Assembly: GCA_902781315.1 (NCBI GenBank)
Contig: CACZIT010000007.1
Coordinates: 40,942 to 104,941 of the forward strand
Source of the DNA: an uncultured Prevotellaceae bacterium
GTDB taxonomy: Bacteria > Bacteroidota > Bacteroidia > Bacteroidales > Bacteroidaceae
Direction of reading: 5' to 3'
Length of the DNA stretch: 64,000 nucleotides
Shown here piece by piece: positions 3,212 through 62,640 of the stretch; position 1 is the first letter of the stretch; each line of letters begins with the position of its first letter. A program made the translations under genes and the position numbers. Below the pieces are notes generated by a model, which was not told where the DNA came from, did not search any database, and saw only the letters and a program-made list of their open reading frames with translations.

Positions 3212-5164
3212 TTACAAGAATCCGTACTCACGACTGTAGCGCAGCATCTGCTCGTCGTAAGTCTCCGAATAGTCAACTTCTATGTCGACGATTTTCCCTT
3301 CGGCATCGGTCACAGGCTTCAGCCAAGGATTGAGGAAGCCTTTGTAGGGCGCCAGGTTCAATCGCTTATATCTTGTCAGGACTTCCTGATGCAAGTCGGC
3401 ATCAATCTTCACGCCATACTTCTCTACCAACTGGCGGGCAGCCTCGAAGTCACCTTCGCTCTTGATGCGCTGCACTTCTGCCAGCAACTGGGCAAACAGG
3501 TCTCGCAGAGCCTTGTAGTCGTTAATGAGCAGATGGGTCTTGCCGTTGCGTCGAATCAGGGAGACAGCCCCCTTGGAATGCTCGTAGGCCCAGCGGGCTA
3601 TCAGGGCCCGGTTTCTCATGTGGGCCTCTTCTATTTGCCGTCCCGGCTCAATACGCACCATTTGGGTGAGCAGGCCGTTGAGCATGTAGGTATAGTACTG
3701 CGACTTGTAGGCATTCCTGTCGGGCACGAGCCCGAGTTCCAGCAGTTTCTCGCTGGCTATGTAGTAGAGCCCGAACAAGTCGGCCCGCGCCTCCTCGATG
3801 GTATTGCCGTAGGCTTTCAGCGCATCAGGGTCTACACCAGGCAGCAACTGTCCGCTGCCGTGTCCCAGACATTCGTGCAGGTCGGTATGCAGGTCGTCGC
3901 AGATGTCGCCATAGCGATTGATCAGGCTACGGGTGGCATCGTCAATCACGAACTCCTCGCTGAATCCGTTTCCGCGCGCTGCCTTGTTGTAGGCATCCGT
4001 GATGTTCGAGATAGTGATGCTCTTCGAACCATATTGGGCGCGTATCCAGTCGGCGTTGGGCAGGTTGATGCCGATAGCCGTAGAGGGATATTCGTCGCCC
4101 CCCAGCATGGCGGCACAAATCACGTGGGCTGTGACGCCGCGCACCTGCTTCTTCTTGAACCGCGGGTCAACGGGCGAATGGTCCTCAAACCATTGGGCAT
4201 TACTGCTGATGGCCTGAGTGCGGCGGGTTCCTATCTTGTCTTTGTATTCCACCAGTCCCTCCCACGATGCCTTCAATCCCAGCGGGTCGCCATACACTTC
4301 TATGAAGCCGTTGATGAAGTCTATGTCGCCATCGAGTTCTTTCAGCCATTCGATGGAGTACTGGTCGAACAGGCGAAGGTCGCCCGTACGATAGTATTGC
4401 GTCAGCAGGGAAATGACCTTCTTCTGCTGGTCGTTCTCGGCTACGTCCTGCGCCTTCTCCAGCCAATAGACTATCTGGCGTATGGCAGCGCCATACAAGC
4501 CGTCGGTCTTCCAGGTCAGTTCCTTCAGAACTCCGTCGGCCTTCACGAGTTTGGAGTTCAGGCCAAAGGAGGGAGGGCAGTCGTCGGCCGCGTTCTTCAT
4601 GGAGCCATAGTAGGCTTCCACCTCGGCCTGGCTGACGCCCTCGTAGAAATTGCATGCCGAGGTCTCGACAAGATCCTGCCCGTCGGCCTTGTTGACACGC
4701 TTAGGAAGTATGTTGGGATTGAAGATGACGGGCACCAGCTCCGCCAGCAGACTTTCGGTCGTCTCGCCATCGCTCAGGGGCAAAAGGGTCGCATCCATCG
4801 CGCCGACCCACTCCCTCAGGTCGTCCTCACCGAACTGTGGGACAAACTTCTCGCAACCATAATGGTGGTAGATGCCATTTGAGAACCACACCCGCTTCAA
4901 GTATTCCAGGAAAGCGCCGAAAGCCGCCGTCTCACGATTGCCCCGATAATGCAGGTAGACGCTTTCGAGCAGTTTCCTGATGCGCAGGTTGTACTTTCCA
5001 AACTGGTCGGTCGTGATGTCCCGACCACACAAGGCTGCCTGGGAGAGATAGTAAATGTATAGTTTCTGGTTGGTAGTAAGTGCTTCAAAACCATTCAGGC
5101 GATATCGCAGTACCTGAATATCAGCAAATCGTTCACCGACGTATTCAAAGTCATGAATCTTCAT
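3212..5164 (-). CDS. Dipeptidyl peptidase III (peptidase family M49)
   Basis: A zinc metallopeptidase that removes dipeptides from peptide N-termini. At 650 aa it is of normal length. The zinc and catalytic motif is HECLGH at 430-435, the variant with cysteine in the middle known from the Bacteroides thetaiotaomicron enzyme, where most relatives have HELLGH. The third zinc ligand region EEARAD is at 457-462. There is no signal peptide, so it should act on imported peptides in the cytoplasm. The ATG lies inside the end of the AraC-like gene (14-base overlap), which suggests coupled translation. Together with the S9 peptidase near 61 kb it fits a peptide-using lifestyle. Confidence 0.92.
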   Translation of the reverse strand: MKIHDFEYVGERFADIQVLRYRLNGFEALTTNQKLYIYYLSQAALCGRDITTDQFGKYNLRIRKLLESVYLHYRGNRETAAFGAFLEYLKRVWFSNGIYHHYGCEKFVPQFGEDDLREWVGAMDATLLPLSDGETTESLLAELVPVIFNPNILPKRVNKADGQDLVETSACNFYEGVSQAEVEAYYGSMKNAADDCPPSFGLNSKLVKADGVLKELTWKTDGLYGAAIRQIVYWLEKAQDVAENDQQKKVISLLTQYYRTGDLRLFDQYSIEWLKELDGDIDFINGFIEVYGDPLGLKASWEGLVEYKDKIGTRRTQAISSNAQWFEDHSPVDPRFKKKQVRGVTAHVICAAMLGGDEYPSTAIGINLPNADWIRAQYGSKSITISNITDAYNKAARGNGFSEEFVIDDATRSLINRYGDICDDLHTDLHECLGHGSGQLLPGVDPDALKAYGNTIEEARADLFGLYYIASEKLLELGLVPDRNAYKSQYYTYMLNGLLTQMVRIEPGRQIEEAHMRNRALIARWAYEHSKGAVSLIRRNGKTHLLINDYKALRDLFAQLLAEVQRIKSEGDFEAARQLVEKYGVKIDADLHQEVLTRYKRLNLAPYKGFLNPWLKPVTDAEGKIVDIEVDYSETYDEQMLRYSREYGFL

Positions 5165-13962: not shown

Positions 13963-14394
13963 TCAAGCCCCAGGCAGTTCCTTCACGATCTGAATACCAG
14001 GGCGTATATCAGGATCGAGCGTACGGCGCAGATTGTCAATCATCACCTGACTTTCTGCGCCTTTTAGCCACACCACGTCCAGCCGGTAGTTATATACCCG
14101 CGTCACGATGTTCTGCGGCATGTCGTCGGCAAAGATGCCCACGCGCAGTACCTTCCGCGCCTCTCCCCCGGTAACTTCCGAGGCAGTCCCGGTAGTTTCC
14201 GAGGCAGTCCCGTAGCCACCCGAGGCAGCCCCCGAGCTGCGCAGCAGGCGCAGCCGTTCCTCGCTATAGTCAGGCATGATGCCCGCCTGCGAACTGATCA
14301 TCCGCACATAGTCAGGGCTCTCCGGCCTGAAGTCGTACAACTCATATCGTGCATCCATCTGCTCCATATCTCTCATCTCCGTTTCTTTTTTCAT
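13963..14394 (-). CDS. TrpF-like (phosphoribosylanthranilate isomerase-related) short protein, probably not catalytic
   Basis: A 143-residue protein whose order of motifs resembles part of the TrpF barrel: MRDMEQM (compare CGMRDxENI), FRPESPDYVR (compare FxPxSPRYV), RVGIFADD (compare RVGVFVN) and YRLDVVWLKGAES (compare YxLDxVQLHGxES). It lacks the KxCG catalytic cysteine at the N-terminus and ends after about half a barrel. Residues 54-78 are a Gly/Ala/Ser/Thr insertion encoded by three 21-base repeats (14169-14231) in a loop before RVGIF. The start MKKETEMRDM is set by the promoter element just upstream. It may be a decayed paralogue or a repurposed domain. The TrpF link is a judgement from motif order only. 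Confidence 0.6.
   Translation of the reverse strand: MKKETEMRDMEQMDARYELYDFRPESPDYVRMISSQAGIMPDYSEERLRLLRSSGAASGGYGTASETTGTASEVTGGEARKVLRVGIFADDMPQNIVTRVYNYRLDVVWLKGAESQVMIDNLRRTLDPDIRPGIQIVKELPGA
14169..14231. repeat. Three 21-base tandem repeats inside the TrpF-like gene
   Basis: Units start at 14169, 14190 and 14211. The first two differ at two positions and share TTCCGAGGCAGTCCCGGTA; the third is more divergent. Being a multiple of three, they keep the frame and encode repeats of the GTASETT type. Confidence 0.85.
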
Positions 14395-14414: not shown

Positions 14415-14734
14415 CAAAAAAGAGTTCATATATTCTTTCCCCGAAAGAAAAAAAAGGGAAAAACTTGGATGGCAACTAAAATTTGCCGACTGGTAGTCGT
14501 GCCCCACCCGTCGCCTATGCATCGAGGGTTTCGTAGGCCCCGCAAATGCCTGGTTTTTCTTGAACGCTTCCCAATCCATGCAGGTGCAAAGGTAAGAAGA
14601 ATTATCGGAAATAGCACCTTTTGGTTATGCGAAATCACCCTTTTTGGCAACTATTCATTCTTTTATAGTCAAAAGAGGTCAAAAACAGAAAACTTTTTTA
14701 TCCTTCAACTTTGAAATGTCGCCGGTTTTTATAG
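14415..14734. other. Non-coding stretch between the TrpF-like gene and the rpe promoter
   Basis: About 320 bases with no gene I can support. It contains a second minus-strand TAnnTTTG match (TACCTTTG, 14587-14594) placed just before a 61-codon frame (14579 to 14394) that reaches the TrpF-like start region. The translation after residue 35 looks random, so I treat it as doubtful. Confidence 0.4.
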
Positions 14735-14742
14735 TACCTTTG
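14710..14742 (+). promoter_or_regulatory. Promoter for the 41-aa ORF and rpe
   Basis: TTTG at 14710-14713 and TACCTTTG at 14735-14742 are separated by 21 bases, the expected -33/-7 arrangement in Bacteroidetes. It would give a leader of roughly 140 bases before the 41-aa ORF. Confidence 0.65.
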
Positions 14743-14887
14743 GAGGCTTCCGTAAGGTACGGAAGGTGCTTCCGCAGGACACAGAAGGGGCATTTGTAGC
14801 ATTCGGAAAAAATTTCTTTCGGGTTATATAATAAATGCTGTAGGGTGTGCGTTATATAAGTAGTAGAACCCCAAAAAAGAATTGCCT

Positions 14888-15013
14888 ATGCAGTATTTTA
14901 CTCAAGAAGAAATGAAACCATCGGAACACGTACTGAACATGATTCGCCAGATTGCCTACACGTACAGGGTGGCTAAGCATAACGGACGAAACGAGGTTTA
15001 CTGCCTGAACTGA
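14888..15013 (+). CDS. Small 41-residue protein of unknown function upstream of rpe
   Basis: An ATG frame beginning MQYFTQEEMKPSEHVLN and ending RNEVYCLN. The composition is protein-like (acidic start, amphipathic middle, conserved-looking YCLN end) and unlike a chance frame. It lies 16 bases upstream of rpe and downstream of a good promoter with a long leader, so it would be co-transcribed with rpe. I recall similar small proteins ending in YCLN in Bacteroidales genomes, but I cannot name a family. A leader peptide is an alternative. Confidence 0.55.
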   Translation: MQYFTQEEMKPSEHVLNMIRQIAYTYRVAKHNGRNEVYCLN

Positions 15014-15029
15014 AAAAACACGCTGAATC

Positions 15030-15689
15030 ATGAAGACTCTGGTATCTCCATCGCTCCTGGCAGCAGACTTTGCCCATCTGTCTGCCGACATCGACATGAT
15101 CAACCGCAGCGAGGCCGACTGGCTGCACCTGGACGTCATGGACGGTGTGTTTGTGCCGAACATCTCGTTCGGCTTCCCCGTGATTGAGGCTGTATCGAAG
15201 ATTTGCAAGAAACCGCTTGACGTTCATTTCATGATTGTGAAGCCCGAACGCTACATCGAGCAGACGGCTCGGCTGGGCGCAATGATGATGAACGTGCACT
15301 ACGAGGCGTCGACGCATCTGCACCGTACGGTTGAAGAGATTCACGCTGCGGGCATGAAGGCAGGTGTGACGCTGAACCCGTCGACGCCGGTGAGCGTGCT
15401 GGAGGACATCATCGGCGACGTGGACATGGTGTTGCTGATGAGTGTGAATCCTGGCTTTGGCGGTCAGAAGTTCATCGAGAACACGATTGCGAAAGTGAAG
15501 CGCCTGCGCGAGCTGATTGCGCAGAGTGGCAGCCACGCGCTGATTGAGGTGGACGGCGGTGTTCAGGCGGAGACGGCTCCGCGGCTGGTGGCCGCCGGTG
15601 TAGACGTGCTGGTGAGTGGCAGCTATGTGTTCAAGGCTGCCGACCCGCTGCAGACCATCCACGAGCTAAAGCGGCTGCGCCGCGTGTAA
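15030..15689 (+). CDS. rpe: Ribulose-phosphate 3-epimerase
   Basis: Interconverts ribulose 5-phosphate and xylulose 5-phosphate in the pentose phosphate pathway; a TIM barrel with a catalytic metal. At 219 aa it has normal length. Motifs in order are SPSLLAADF, DWLHLDVMDGVFVPN with the metal-binding HLDVMDG, DVHFMIVKPE, VLLMSVNPGFGGQKF, and EVDGGVQ near the C-terminus. The last residues KRLRRV and the TAA stop are encoded by the first unit of a tandem hairpin array (15671-15830). The usual enzyme often ends nearby, so the array has probably supplied or replaced the last codons. Confidence 0.96.
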   Translation: MKTLVSPSLLAADFAHLSADIDMINRSEADWLHLDVMDGVFVPNISFGFPVIEAVSKICKKPLDVHFMIVKPERYIEQTARLGAMMMNVHYEASTHLHRTVEEIHAAGMKAGVTLNPSTPVSVLEDIIGDVDMVLLMSVNPGFGGQKFIENTIAKVKRLRELIAQSGSHALIEVDGGVQAETAPRLVAAGVDVLVSGSYVFKAADPLQTIHELKRLRRV

Positions 15690-15830
15690 GGCCCTTCGGG
15701 CTGTGTAAGGCGACTTCGTCGCGTGTAAGGACGCTGACGCGTCGTGTAAGGCGGCTGCGCCGCGTGTAAGGCGACTTCGTCGCGTGTAAGGACGCTGACG
15801 CGTCGTGTAAGGCGGCTGCGCCGCGTGTAA
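15671..15830. repeat. Tandem array of eight micro-hairpins joined by GTGTAAG
   Basis: Eight units of 19-21 bases, each a short perfect hairpin followed by GTGTAAG. A = GCGGC-TGC-GCCGC (15671, 15751, 15812); B = GCGAC-TTC-GTCGC (15710, 15771); C = GACGC-TGAC-GCGTC (15730, 15791); D = GCCC-TTC-GGGC (15691). The order is A-D-B-C-A-B-C-A, so A-B-C is itself repeated with a 61-base period. The stems change while the joining sequence stays constant. Unit 1 overlaps the end of rpe including its stop codon. Confidence 0.95.
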
Positions 15831-15853
15831 CCCGAAGTGGCAGTATCTCATAG

Positions 15854-15878
15854 CCCAGGGCATCGCCCTGGGTTTTTT
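15854..15878 (+). terminator. Intrinsic terminator after rpe and its array
   Basis: CCCAGGGC-ATC-GCCCTGGG followed by TTTTTT: an 8-bp stem, triloop and T-tract. Confidence 0.85.
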
Positions 15879-15930
15879 GATGCCCCCACAGATGTGGCGC
15901 CTGAAGGGGCAGCATTTGCCATAAAAGAAG

Positions 15931-15965
15931 AAATCCCAGCCTCGGAAGAATCCGGGCTGGGATTT
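15931..15965 (-). terminator. Intrinsic terminator of the rpsF-rpsR-rplI operon
   Basis: AAATCCCAGCC (15931-15941) pairs with GGCTGGGATTT (15955-15965). On the minus strand the stem is followed by a T-rich run (TTTCTTCTTTTAT), as expected for the end of rplI. Confidence 0.75.
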
Positions 15966-16006
15966 GCTATTGATTTGCTTTACAGGGCAAATGATAGTTC
16001 CAAACT

Positions 16007-16573
16007 TTACTCTGCTGCGGGAGCCTCCTCCTCGGCAACGGGAGCCTCTTCAACAGCTTCCTCGACGGCCTCGGCGGCTGCCTCAACTGCTGCGGGAGCT
16101 TCCTCTACGACGGGGGCTTCAAGATCCTCGGGGTTCTCGGCAATGACCTTCACGGGCACCTTCACCTCTACTTCCTTGTGGAAGTGGATAACGGCCTCGT
16201 AGTCACCCAGCTGCTTGGCATCGCGCATGGTGACGATCTTGCGCTCAACCTCGATACCCTTCTCGGCGAGAGCAGCCACTACCTGAGCAGCGCCTACAGA
16301 ACCGTAGAGCTGGCCAGTGGCACCAACCTTGGCGGCGATTTCCAGAGCAACACCCTCGAAAGCCTTGGCCTTCTCCTCGGCGTTCTGCTTCAGGACGGCC
16401 AGCTTGTGGGCCTGCTGACGCAGGTTCTCGGCGAGCACCTTCTTTGCGCTCGGCGAAGCGATGACGCCCTTGCCTGTGGGGATGAGATAATTACGGCCAT
16501 AGCCGTTCTTCACATTCACGATATCGTTCTTGTATCCCAGACCGATAATATCTTCTTTCAGTATAATTTCCAT
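16007..16573 (-). CDS. rplI: 50S ribosomal protein L9 with an Ala/Glu-rich C-terminal tail
   Basis: Binds 23S rRNA near the L1 stalk base. The N-terminal domain MEIILKEDIIGLGYKNDIVNVKNGYGRNYLIP is canonical and the C-terminal domain follows to about residue 147. The protein then continues for about 40 residues of alternating Glu, Ala, Pro and Val (EEAPAAVEAAAEAVEEAVEE and similar), making 188 aa against the usual near-150. The tail is acidic and low in complexity and is encoded by GC-rich repeats. It is the last gene of rpsF-rpsR-rplI, 19 bases after rpsR. Confidence 0.97.
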   Translation of the reverse strand: MEIILKEDIIGLGYKNDIVNVKNGYGRNYLIPTGKGVIASPSAKKVLAENLRQQAHKLAVLKQNAEEKAKAFEGVALEIAAKVGATGQLYGSVGAAQVVAALAEKGIEVERKIVTMRDAKQLGDYEAVIHFHKEVEVKVPVKVIAENPEDLEAPVVEEAPAAVEAAAEAVEEAVEEAPVAEEEAPAAE

Positions 16574-16592
16574 TCTGTTTCCTCCTCTTTAA

Positions 16593-16859
16593 TTATTTCA
16601 TCAAATCGGTTACGTAGGGAAGCAGGGCAATCTGGCGGGCACGCTTCACGGCCTGAGCCACACGGCGCTGGTACTTCAGAGAGGTTCCGGTGATGCGGCG
16701 GGGAAGAATCTTACCCTGCTCGTTGAGGAACTTCTTCAGGAACTCGGGATCCTTGTAGTCGATATACTTGATGCCGCTCTTCTTGAAACGGCAATACTTC
16801 TTCTTCTTCGTGTCGATGGAAGGAGCAGTAAGATAACGGATTTCTGATTGTTCTGCCAT
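16593..16859 (-). CDS. rpsR: 30S ribosomal protein S18
   Basis: An 88-residue protein of the small-subunit platform, where it pairs with S6. Family signatures are [20 protein letters not shown] and [30 protein letters not shown]. It has no CxxC zinc site in the N-terminal part. It lies 3 bases after rpsF and 19 before rplI. Confidence 0.97.
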
Positions 16860-29128: not shown

Positions 29129-29282
29129 TTACCAGATTCATTACCACCATCTGGTAATCCATGTACCACGGCCTTGTAATAGTTGTACCAGGCCCTGGTA
29201 AACCATGTACCAGGCCGCGGTAAACCATGTACCAGGCCGCGGTACACACATTACCACGCCCTGGTACATCCCAAAAATCTTA
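29129..29282. repeat. Tandem 22-base imperfect-palindrome array between rprY and hutI
   Basis: Six units start at 29141, 29163, 29185, 29207, 29229 and 29251, exactly 22 bases apart. Each has the form (G/T)TACCA...TGGTA or GCGGTA with a changing centre (for example TACCAGGCCCTGGTA, TACCAGGCCGCGGTA) and a spacer like AACCATG. A partial unit lies at 29129. The hutI stop codon sits in a similar palindrome, TTACCGGTA, at 29280-29288. Confidence 0.9.
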
Positions 29283-62253: not shown

Positions 62254-62640
62254 GTGCGCGGCTTCGCCGCAGTTCAATGCGCTTCGCGCGGTTGAGAACG
62301 TTGAGAAGCGCCGTTGGCGCGGTTGAGAAAGTTCTTTCTCCGCTTCGCGTCGAGCGGAGAGTTTAGAGTTGAGAGTTTAGAGTTTAGAGTCAGTTGAGAG
62401 TTCTTTCTCTGCTTCGCAGCGGGTGAATGCTGCTTCGCAGCGGTTGAGAAAGTTCTTTCTCCGCTTTGCTACGAAAGCGCCCCTACGGGTCGAGCGGAGA
62501 AGCGCCGTTGGCGCGGTTGAGAAAGTTCTTTCTCCGCTTCGCTCTGAAAGCGCCACCCTTCGGGATGTCGAGCGGAGAAGCGCCGTTGGCGCGGTTGAGA
62601 GAGTTCTTTCTCCGCTTCGCAGCGGGTAAAAGTCCCGTAG
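62254..62640. repeat. Mosaic of GC-rich micro-hairpins downstream of the S9 peptidase
   Basis: Starts one base after the stop with GCGGC-TTC-GCCGC. A 46-base block (GAGAAGCGCC-GTT-GGCGCGG, then GAGAAAGTTCTTTCTC and CGCTTCGC) occurs at 62303, 62497 and 62575; the last two are 78 bases apart as a tandem. Other members are CCCTACGGG, CCCTTCGGG, GCTGCTTCGCAGC and a simple run of GAGTTTA-like heptamers (62359-62400). I see no coding sequence here. Confidence 0.85.

Follow-up and report, generated by a model that had tools for sequence, protein, structure and literature searches.

Tandem mini-hairpins behind rpe belong to a dispersed repeat whose pairing is kept while its stem letters change

Introduction

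At the 3' end of rpe, in the 64-kb stretch of DNA analyzed here (the window), a row of small hairpins is joined by a constant heptamer, GTGTAAG. What kind of element is this row, and what keeps its hairpins perfect? A preliminary description suggested that structure and not sequence is kept, and offered three functions: an RNA-stability or transcription-end structure, a protein-binding array, or a self-amplifying repeat. The locus was compared with the rest of its genome, with orthologous gene ends in relatives and with known repeat systems. In our reading, the arrays are DNA repeats that are dispersed, can expand, and are maintained by hairpin shape.

The array at the 3' end of rpe

The rpe gene (ribulose-phosphate 3-epimerase; 15030..15689, plus strand; Pfam PF00834, E 2.5e-76) encodes a protein ending in ...ELKRLRRV*. 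Eight hairpins on GTGTAAG linkers, with a unit length of 19-21 bases, were found at 15671-15830 on the same strand, exactly where they had been described. Unit 1 (15671..15690) reads GCGGC-TGC-GCCGC plus GTGTAAG and overlaps the rpe stop codon. It is followed by unit 2 (15691..15709; GCCC-TTC-GGGC plus TGTGTAAG), unit 3 (15710..15729; GCGAC-TTC-GTCGC plus GTGTAAG) and unit 4 (15730..15750; GACGC-TGAC-GCGTC plus GTGTAAG). The hairpin of unit 2, GCCC-TTC-GGGC(T), has an extra T at one linker. Units 5-7 (15751..15811) repeat hairpins 1, 3 and 4, and unit 8 (15812..15830) is GCGGC-TGC-GCCGC plus GTGTAA, so that the order is 1, 2, 3, 4, 1, 3, 4, 1. The eighth linker is GTGTAAC, not GTGTAAG. TRF reported a period of 61 bases with 2.1 copies at 100%, and the duplication of a three-unit block is thereby borne out. 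All seven copies of GTGTAAG in the window lie inside the array. This count is not significant alone, being reached in 6 of 100 shuffles; the unusual features are the clustering of the linkers and the pairing, not the linker number. The covariance model R1, built on two units, matches at 15744-15789 with 72.6 bits, a segment that is itself part of the model.

The first hairpin is coding. Its codons CGG CTG CGC CGC GTG TAA close rpe as ...KRLRRV*, and the stop codon is the TAA of the first linker. None of 30 rpe orthologues of relatives ends in this way and 20 of the 30 end in L-K/R-x-L*, so the array appears, from this comparison, to have altered the C-terminal tail of Rpe. The closest Rpe proteins (91%) among 58 genomes searched are those of Prevotella sp. 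RGIG7592 and Prevotellaceae RUG178, so the own genome is likely to be a Prevotella. Because many relatives end in K-x-L, it is possible that the first hairpin arose de novo from native codons (K-R-L, followed by a copied arm). As a counterpoint, the same hairpin recurs in another array of the genome (C31:16114).

The next gene after the array is rplI (ribosomal protein L9), which is convergent to rpe. Between the two, about 20 bases past the array and outside it, the consensus scan placed a terminator-like hairpin of 10 pairs with a loop of 3 and a T run (15852..15877, plus strand; 15852-15874 in the scan). One such hairpin was found, compared with 1.7 expected in shuffles. The array itself contains no G+C-rich hairpin with a T run, and an intrinsic terminator was rejected as its identity. 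Among the Rfam families searched against 14600-16800 (Rfam 15), the best was Gut-1 with 20.3 bits, compared with a gathering score of 50; a known RNA family, part of one refuting outcome named in the preliminary description, did not turn up. CRISPR arrays have a constant repeat of about 21-48 bases and unique spacers. Here, the constant part is 7 bases and the variable part is palindromic and recurring, and the preliminary description had rightly set CRISPR aside.

A second dispersed repeat lies directly behind the array at 15831-15876 and contains the terminator-like hairpin; at least 12 other BLAST matches in the genome cover about this region. Other short tandem repeats of the window are located at 62301-62629, 29151-29266 and 14167-14232, the first of them with weak matches to R1 (best 16.4 bits).

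Pairing and stem letters

A unit consists of a hairpin of 4-6 pairs, nearly always with a loop of 3-4 bases, and a constant linker of about 7 bases. Units stand head to tail. The linker is GTGTAAG in the window array and GGGTAAG or GTTCAA elsewhere. The pattern TGTAAGN{9,17}GTGTAAG matched 70 times in the whole genome, compared with 4 matches for the reversed control. Perfect hairpins of at least 4 pairs, with one trailing base allowed, were present in 66 of the 70 inserts, a count made with no selection by similarity to the window array. For a second sample, 21 loci of the genome were picked by similarity to the window array, and whatever stood between two G[TGA]GTAA linkers, if 9-17 bases long, was taken as an insert regardless of pairing. 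Of these 102 inserts, 96 had a stem of 4 or more pairs without mismatch, compared with about 6.8 per shuffled set. Four stems had been noted at first; this sample contains 21, and GCCC-TTC-GGGC recurs in it 11 times. Among inserts of exactly 13 bases, 52 of 55 were perfect 5+3+5 hairpins of the form G-NNN-C-loop-G-NNN-C. Positions 1, 5, 9 and 13 were G, C, G and C in all 52, and the three middle pairs, which match by definition of the 52, were variable, with an entropy of 1.2-1.6 bits at the middle stem positions. With wider linkers, 135 of 143 inserts were hairpins, containing 645 Watson-Crick pairs, 4 G.T pairs and 10 other non-pairs. Apart from the whole-genome 66 of 70, the counts of stems, pairs, loops, gene positions and neighbour pairs in the own genome come from the 21 loci similar to the window array. 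Alignment A1 was chosen from perfect hairpins, and its 100% pairing proves nothing; alignment A2, fitted to structure, leans toward kept pairing likewise. The sampled inserts firmly establish that pairing is maintained while stem letters change, as the preliminary description had proposed.

The loops are also biased. On the strand shown, TNC or TNNC loops, which are GNA or GNNA on the CTTACAC strand, were counted in 98 of 135 hairpins of the own genome (G000), 21 of 31 in G201 (RUG178), 32 of 53 in G202 and 3 of 7 in G203 (RGIG7592). Copies share ancestry and cannot be taken as independent; with each distinct hairpin counted once, the numbers were 44/73, 14/22, 19/33 and 1/4, respectively.

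Two explanations can be weighed at this point. The first is a protein-binding array in double-stranded DNA, with the linker as the site. In favor of this, the linker hardly changes within an array, unlike the rest of the unit. However, perfect pairing outside the linker would not be needed for binding, and the linkers differ between genomes, which makes this explanation very unlikely. The second manages without a transposase: slippage on heptamer-like direct repeats would lengthen the row, and fold-back template switching (quasi-palindrome correction) would copy one arm from the other. This explains that both arms change together with few intermediates, as in the 4 and 10 exceptions among the pairs above, a rarity of mismatched stems that unit insertion alone leaves unexplained. 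On the other hand, slippage does not explain why the outer pair is fixed as G-C and the inner as C-G, nor the loop preference or the presence of the same hairpin at many separate places, such as the 11 occurrences of GCCC-TTC-GGGC.

Copies elsewhere in the genome

The preliminary description treated the array as a feature of the rpe 3' end. This view had to be given up, and the array is a repeat dispersed over the genome. In a BLAST search the array region matched at least 46 places of the own genome, its own locus among them (best 40 of 64 candidates scored); of the other matches listed, 33 overlap the array part and 12 the DNA behind it. R1 gave at least 95 matches at E 1e-3 or better (best 150 of 1883 candidates). 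These form at least 59 clusters on 25 of 60 contigs, the weakest clusters being included uninspected.

Gene positions around 28 arrays were called with a simple gene finder written for the analysis. The upstream gene could be identified for 26 of the 28 and lies on the same strand for 20. Thirteen of the 28 arrays start within 40 bases of the stop codon of the upstream gene, in the orientation of that gene. In four arrays (L001, L004, L007 and the window array) the stop codon is located inside a linker or the linker-like ATGTAAG. A convergent downstream gene was identified for 8 of the 28 arrays, and none of these 8 lies within 40 bases of its stop; for 9 of the 28 no downstream gene was identified. 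The L010 array begins 21 bases ahead of a divergent gene. The remaining arrays are further from genes, and several lie within larger composite repeats.

The preference for upstream stops in sense orientation, together with its lack at convergent stops, speaks for hairpins that act in mRNA, as 3'-end structures selected for transcription termination or decay protection. A terminator role has been proposed for hairpin clusters that follow stop codons, in the part of PMC8355165 considered here, and the likeness is that several hairpins stand side by side directly behind a stop. The clusters of that part of PMC8355165 are predicted per gene, whereas the present rows are dispersed repeats that are mostly absent at the orthologous gene ends compared. 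In addition, rpe already has its terminator-like hairpin a short distance further on. G.U pairs are not in excess (4, compared with the 10 other non-pairs), a weak point from small numbers. A 3'-end role in RNA is the less likely reading, and we regard it as improbable.

Composite repeats were seen at L012 (about 1230-1750), L013 (about 1350-1700), L016 and L001 (4800-5240). Inverted arrays flank GTCCCGTAGGGACGGGAT, then comes the palindrome CCAGCCAATTCATTGGCTGG, and then a core of about 115 bases with inverted ends GTGCCGTAGGTAC... This order looks like nested palindromic elements round a MITE-like core. Dispersed short direct repeats of the AAAGTAAC type occur in many places in G047 and G201, and also upstream of the own L007 array.

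Occupied and empty sites

Fourteen array loci were compared with the orthologous gene ends in G201 (RUG178), G203 (RGIG7592), G047 and G006, giving 42 comparisons. The upstream DNA was 70-90% identical, and units were sought within 250 bases. Left out were the partial matches L244 and L253, as too short or probably not the orthologue; the L236 stretch ends soon after the gene. No unit was present at 38 of the 42 sites. Arrays were found at 3 sites and a single unit-like hairpin at 1, the rpe of RUG178, and all four positive sites belong to RUG178. From these alignments we firmly take the units to be lineage-specific DNA, absent from most of the orthologous places compared and often at gene ends. 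Such a mixture of occupied and empty sites is a general mark of mobile elements, with gain and loss indistinguishable here. The empty gene ends also speak against selection for a function in mRNA, and whole arrays at sites that are empty in relatives are left unexplained by slippage.

At L004 the gene end GAGGTGTAAGG precedes the first unit and GTGTAAGGAG stands after the last. The gene end reads GTGTAAGG with the units behind it, and its counterpart in G047 is GTATAAGGAG with nothing inserted. At the site itself G047 has GAGGTATAAGGAG without units, and two other relatives have GAAGTGTGAGG and GAAGTGTGATG. The gene hpt (TIGR01203, above cut-off) gives a different picture. In relatives it ends in GTG GAA and a stop, in G006 in GTT GAG and a stop. 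In the own genome GGCCCGCAGGGCGTG stands before TAAGG and the protein gains GPQGV, so that the first unit sits between GAA and TAAGG and not 3' of TAAG.

At L009 the own genome and RUG178 (L256, about 890-1000, C28) hold arrays at one gene end, with different hairpins. At L014 an A-B-C block stands behind a first hairpin in both genomes. RUG178 has amplified it to ten units, and one stem has changed from GGCC/GGCC in the own genome to GACC/GGTC. Growth by blocks was also evident in neighbour pairs, of which 3 were repeated inside arrays compared with 0.12 expected (0 of 1000 shuffles). This agrees with the slippage account and with the duplicated block of the window array. Neighbour pairs common to different arrays numbered 6 compared with 2.1 expected (10 of 1000 shuffles), a mild excess. 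In these counts, a few L005 hairpins were counted on both strands and some palindromes that are not units were included. Dispersal looks to be mostly unit by unit.

Arrays in other genomes

The pattern search matched 2 of 200 genomes of the same genus and R1 matched 2 of 100 relatives, the own genome included in both. In a larger set R1 matched at least 12 of 398 genomes of the genus including the own (at least 11 of 397 others; best 15 candidates per genome). Rows of at least 3 hairpins were present in 7 of 11 other matching genomes (G082, G094, G171, G172, G247, G303 and G368), several of them with GTTCAA or GGGTAA as linker; the coordinates of G368 and G172 are those of RUG178 and RGIG7592. 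A single unit was present in G047, and in the matching genomes G140, G268 and G374 no row of at least 3 hairpins was seen. Related arrays with other units thus exist in related genomes, as the preliminary description had invited one to look for. Model R2 matched 4 of 392 other genomes of the order. These were rejected as the same repeat, being either one hairpin with identical letters or an unconvincing match.

A scan of genome contigs for linker arrays gave at least 102 stretches. GTGTAAG copies were directly adjacent in 49 of them, from many phyla, and in some arrays heptamers stand side by side (GTGTAAG-GTATAAG in RUG178). Both observations favor slippage on the heptamer, an account that we hold to be unlikely overall, if the least so of the alternatives. 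Most other stretches among the scan matches listed were, by eye, ordinary tandem repeats; L025, L027, L042, L050 and L074 were the clear cases of variable hairpins among them. The units of L025 (UBA3630, DFLB01000073.1) are the same as those of the own contig C37, and the contig is probably mis-binned, because identity at rpe is only 60% between that genome and the own. In four Dysgonamonadaceae stretches (L063, L078, L107 and L122), tandem GTGTAAG alternates with 16-base inserts whose TTACA-like letters are partly complementary to the linker; this is a different repeat.

The window comes from a draft assembly of 60 contigs with several arrays near contig ends, and an assembly artefact was considered. 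However, arrays of the same build with their own stems are present in three separately deposited assemblies, RUG178, RGIG7592 and RGIG2694, and RUG178 has an orthologous array with related units. An artefact, which the preliminary description had named as a way to fail, is scarcely credible.

Searches of the open-licence PMC literature found no description of such mini-hairpin arrays. Scattered over one genome and largely absent from close relatives, the rows suggest a spreading or expanding DNA repeat of a sort that has been little described.

Folding of the two strands

The window array was folded as DNA and as RNA and compared with shuffles. As DNA, the CTTACAC strand gave z = -2.77 and the other strand z = -1.89. 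The RNA of the gene strand was no more stable than shuffles (z = 0.18), and its best fold is not a chain of small hairpins, a further result against the mRNA role. In single-stranded DNA, GNA or GNNA loops on G-C pairs are extraordinarily stable and nuclease-resistant, according to the portion of PMC4686876 used here. Because the loops on the CTTACAC strand are of this kind, that strand as single-stranded DNA is the likelier folded form. The simple hairpin chain is not the computed optimum, since the best folds of both the DNA and the gene-strand RNA pair different units with one another. Among the three functions offered at first, the self-amplifying repeat is favored, whereas RNA structure has lost ground through the RNA folding and the many empty orthologous sites.

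Known systems and candidate enzymes

REP elements are the nearest known kind. They are patchy between lineages, and the mini-hairpin arrays resemble them in this and in having many extragenic copies in one genome. REP/RAYT systems likewise consist of small palindromes with many copies per genome, largely between genes, as the relevant parts of PMC3733652 and PMC6006769 describe. In the definition given in the part of PMC6006769 concerned, the foot of a REP element is GTAG or GTGG and its fully paired basal stem is 7-20 pairs long. Here, the foot is mostly TAAG, TAAA or CAA instead of GT[AG]G. The stems have 4-6 pairs, and their letters are not conserved between copies (21 stems in the sample). 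The flanking of a cognate Y1 gene by the same repeats was not seen at the 22 Y1 loci compared.

These 22 loci represent 20 genomes (3 own loci, 1 each of 19 others and none of G203) and contained no convincing R1 array. The best R1 score there was 13.4 bits, and a single-hairpin match of 11.0 bits stands beside the gene of G038; the three own loci had no match to the array model. Y1_Tnp was counted in 30 of 45 genomes; with G000 and G200-G203 set aside, it occurs in 25 of the remaining 40. It was not found in G047, which has a unit. A Y1 gene as the obvious owner of the arrays was therefore rejected: none of the 22 loci adjoins an array, and the domain is widespread. An IS200/IS605 insertion sequence was also rejected, as units of about 20 bases and hairpin rows below 250 bases leave no room for a tnpA of their own. 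A viral carrier was rejected on the viral contigs searched. The pattern GTGTAAGGN{9,14}CGTGTAAGG matched 13 of them, and in 13 of 13 stretches there was no hairpin between the linkers.

Two other repeat kinds come close in part. Hairpin elements of sponge mitochondria spread between genes with kept structure and tandem insertions, and have conserved stems and varying loops, as far as the cited part of PMC2800124 goes; compared with these, the middle stem pairs vary too here, and the kind of genome is different. Heptamer direct repeats such as TAACTGA are 7 bases long with TAA inside, intergenic and patchy, occurring in five Bacteroidetes and missing from some close relatives; they are bare, and in the best-studied genome they mostly stand before start codons (PMC4679880, in the sections drawn on here). 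They resemble the linker alone. In the present arrays, which often follow stops, perfect hairpins stand between the heptamers, and exact heptamers without spacer are only occasionally adjacent (L050).

A model for dispersal

The reading that we prefer, to which we assign a probability of roughly 40%, is that the array belongs to a dispersed family of minute DNA repeats, which is kept and multiplied by its hairpin shape and moved by a single-strand-acting enzyme. Where the DNA is single-stranded, as at a replication fork, unusually stable GNA/GNNA mini-hairpins would form on the CTTACAC strand. An enzyme acting in trans on single strands, most plausibly an HUH/Y1 transposase of the IS200/REP type, would recognize shape and linker. 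The unit would be moved or copied to the 3' side of a GTGTAAG- or TAA(G)-like sequence, which may sometimes be native to a gene end. Arrays would then lengthen by tandem duplication of one to three units, and stop codons would be preferred because the target contains TAA and because insertions at other places are lost.

Transposition of this kind accounts for the head-to-tail order, the constant linker, unit-wise dispersal and the position behind GTGTAAG. It is also in line with the dispersed copies, pairing without conserved sequence, the loop preference, the empty orthologous sites, the L004 insertion behind a native-looking target and block growth at L014. The strand bias of the DNA folds, set against the unremarkable RNA fold, points the same way. 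Against it stand the Y1 loci, none of which ties a candidate enzyme to the arrays. Y1 genes do not track the arrays, and none of those compared is flanked by them. Known REP/IS200 recognition depends on a conserved foot, the first hpt unit is placed otherwise than predicted, and the predicted DNA folds pair units mutually.

A bolder version, which we consider rather unlikely, is a class of mobile DNA that inherits only secondary structure and a short linker. Any C-G-closed GNA/GNNA mini-hairpin of single-stranded DNA with a linker could then be moved or copied. Its letters would drift while its shape is policed, and native GTGTAAG gene ends would serve as seeds.

If the preferred reading is right, a bacterial chromosome contains a repeat that is kept by shape, and Prevotella and its kin would offer a natural test bed for the creation and spread of palindromes by replication-fork hairpins. 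The arrays would also be fast-changing loci for telling strains apart. With their edited ends, rpe and hpt illustrate a way in which conserved proteins can gain residues from such repeats.

Hairpin rows of other kinds were observed in the same genome. At L019, positions 1371-1493 and 3285-3409 (own C31) carry rows with a different linker, CTCTCAAC/GTTGAGAG. Each of L123, L124 and L125 (own C11, C29 and C25) holds a transposase gene of the single-domain Y1 (IS200-like) type, flanked by palindromes. Hairpins resembling GACCTC-TCC-GAGGTC form a tandem row downstream of the one in L123, and GACCTC hairpins of a similar kind adjoin an array in L003.
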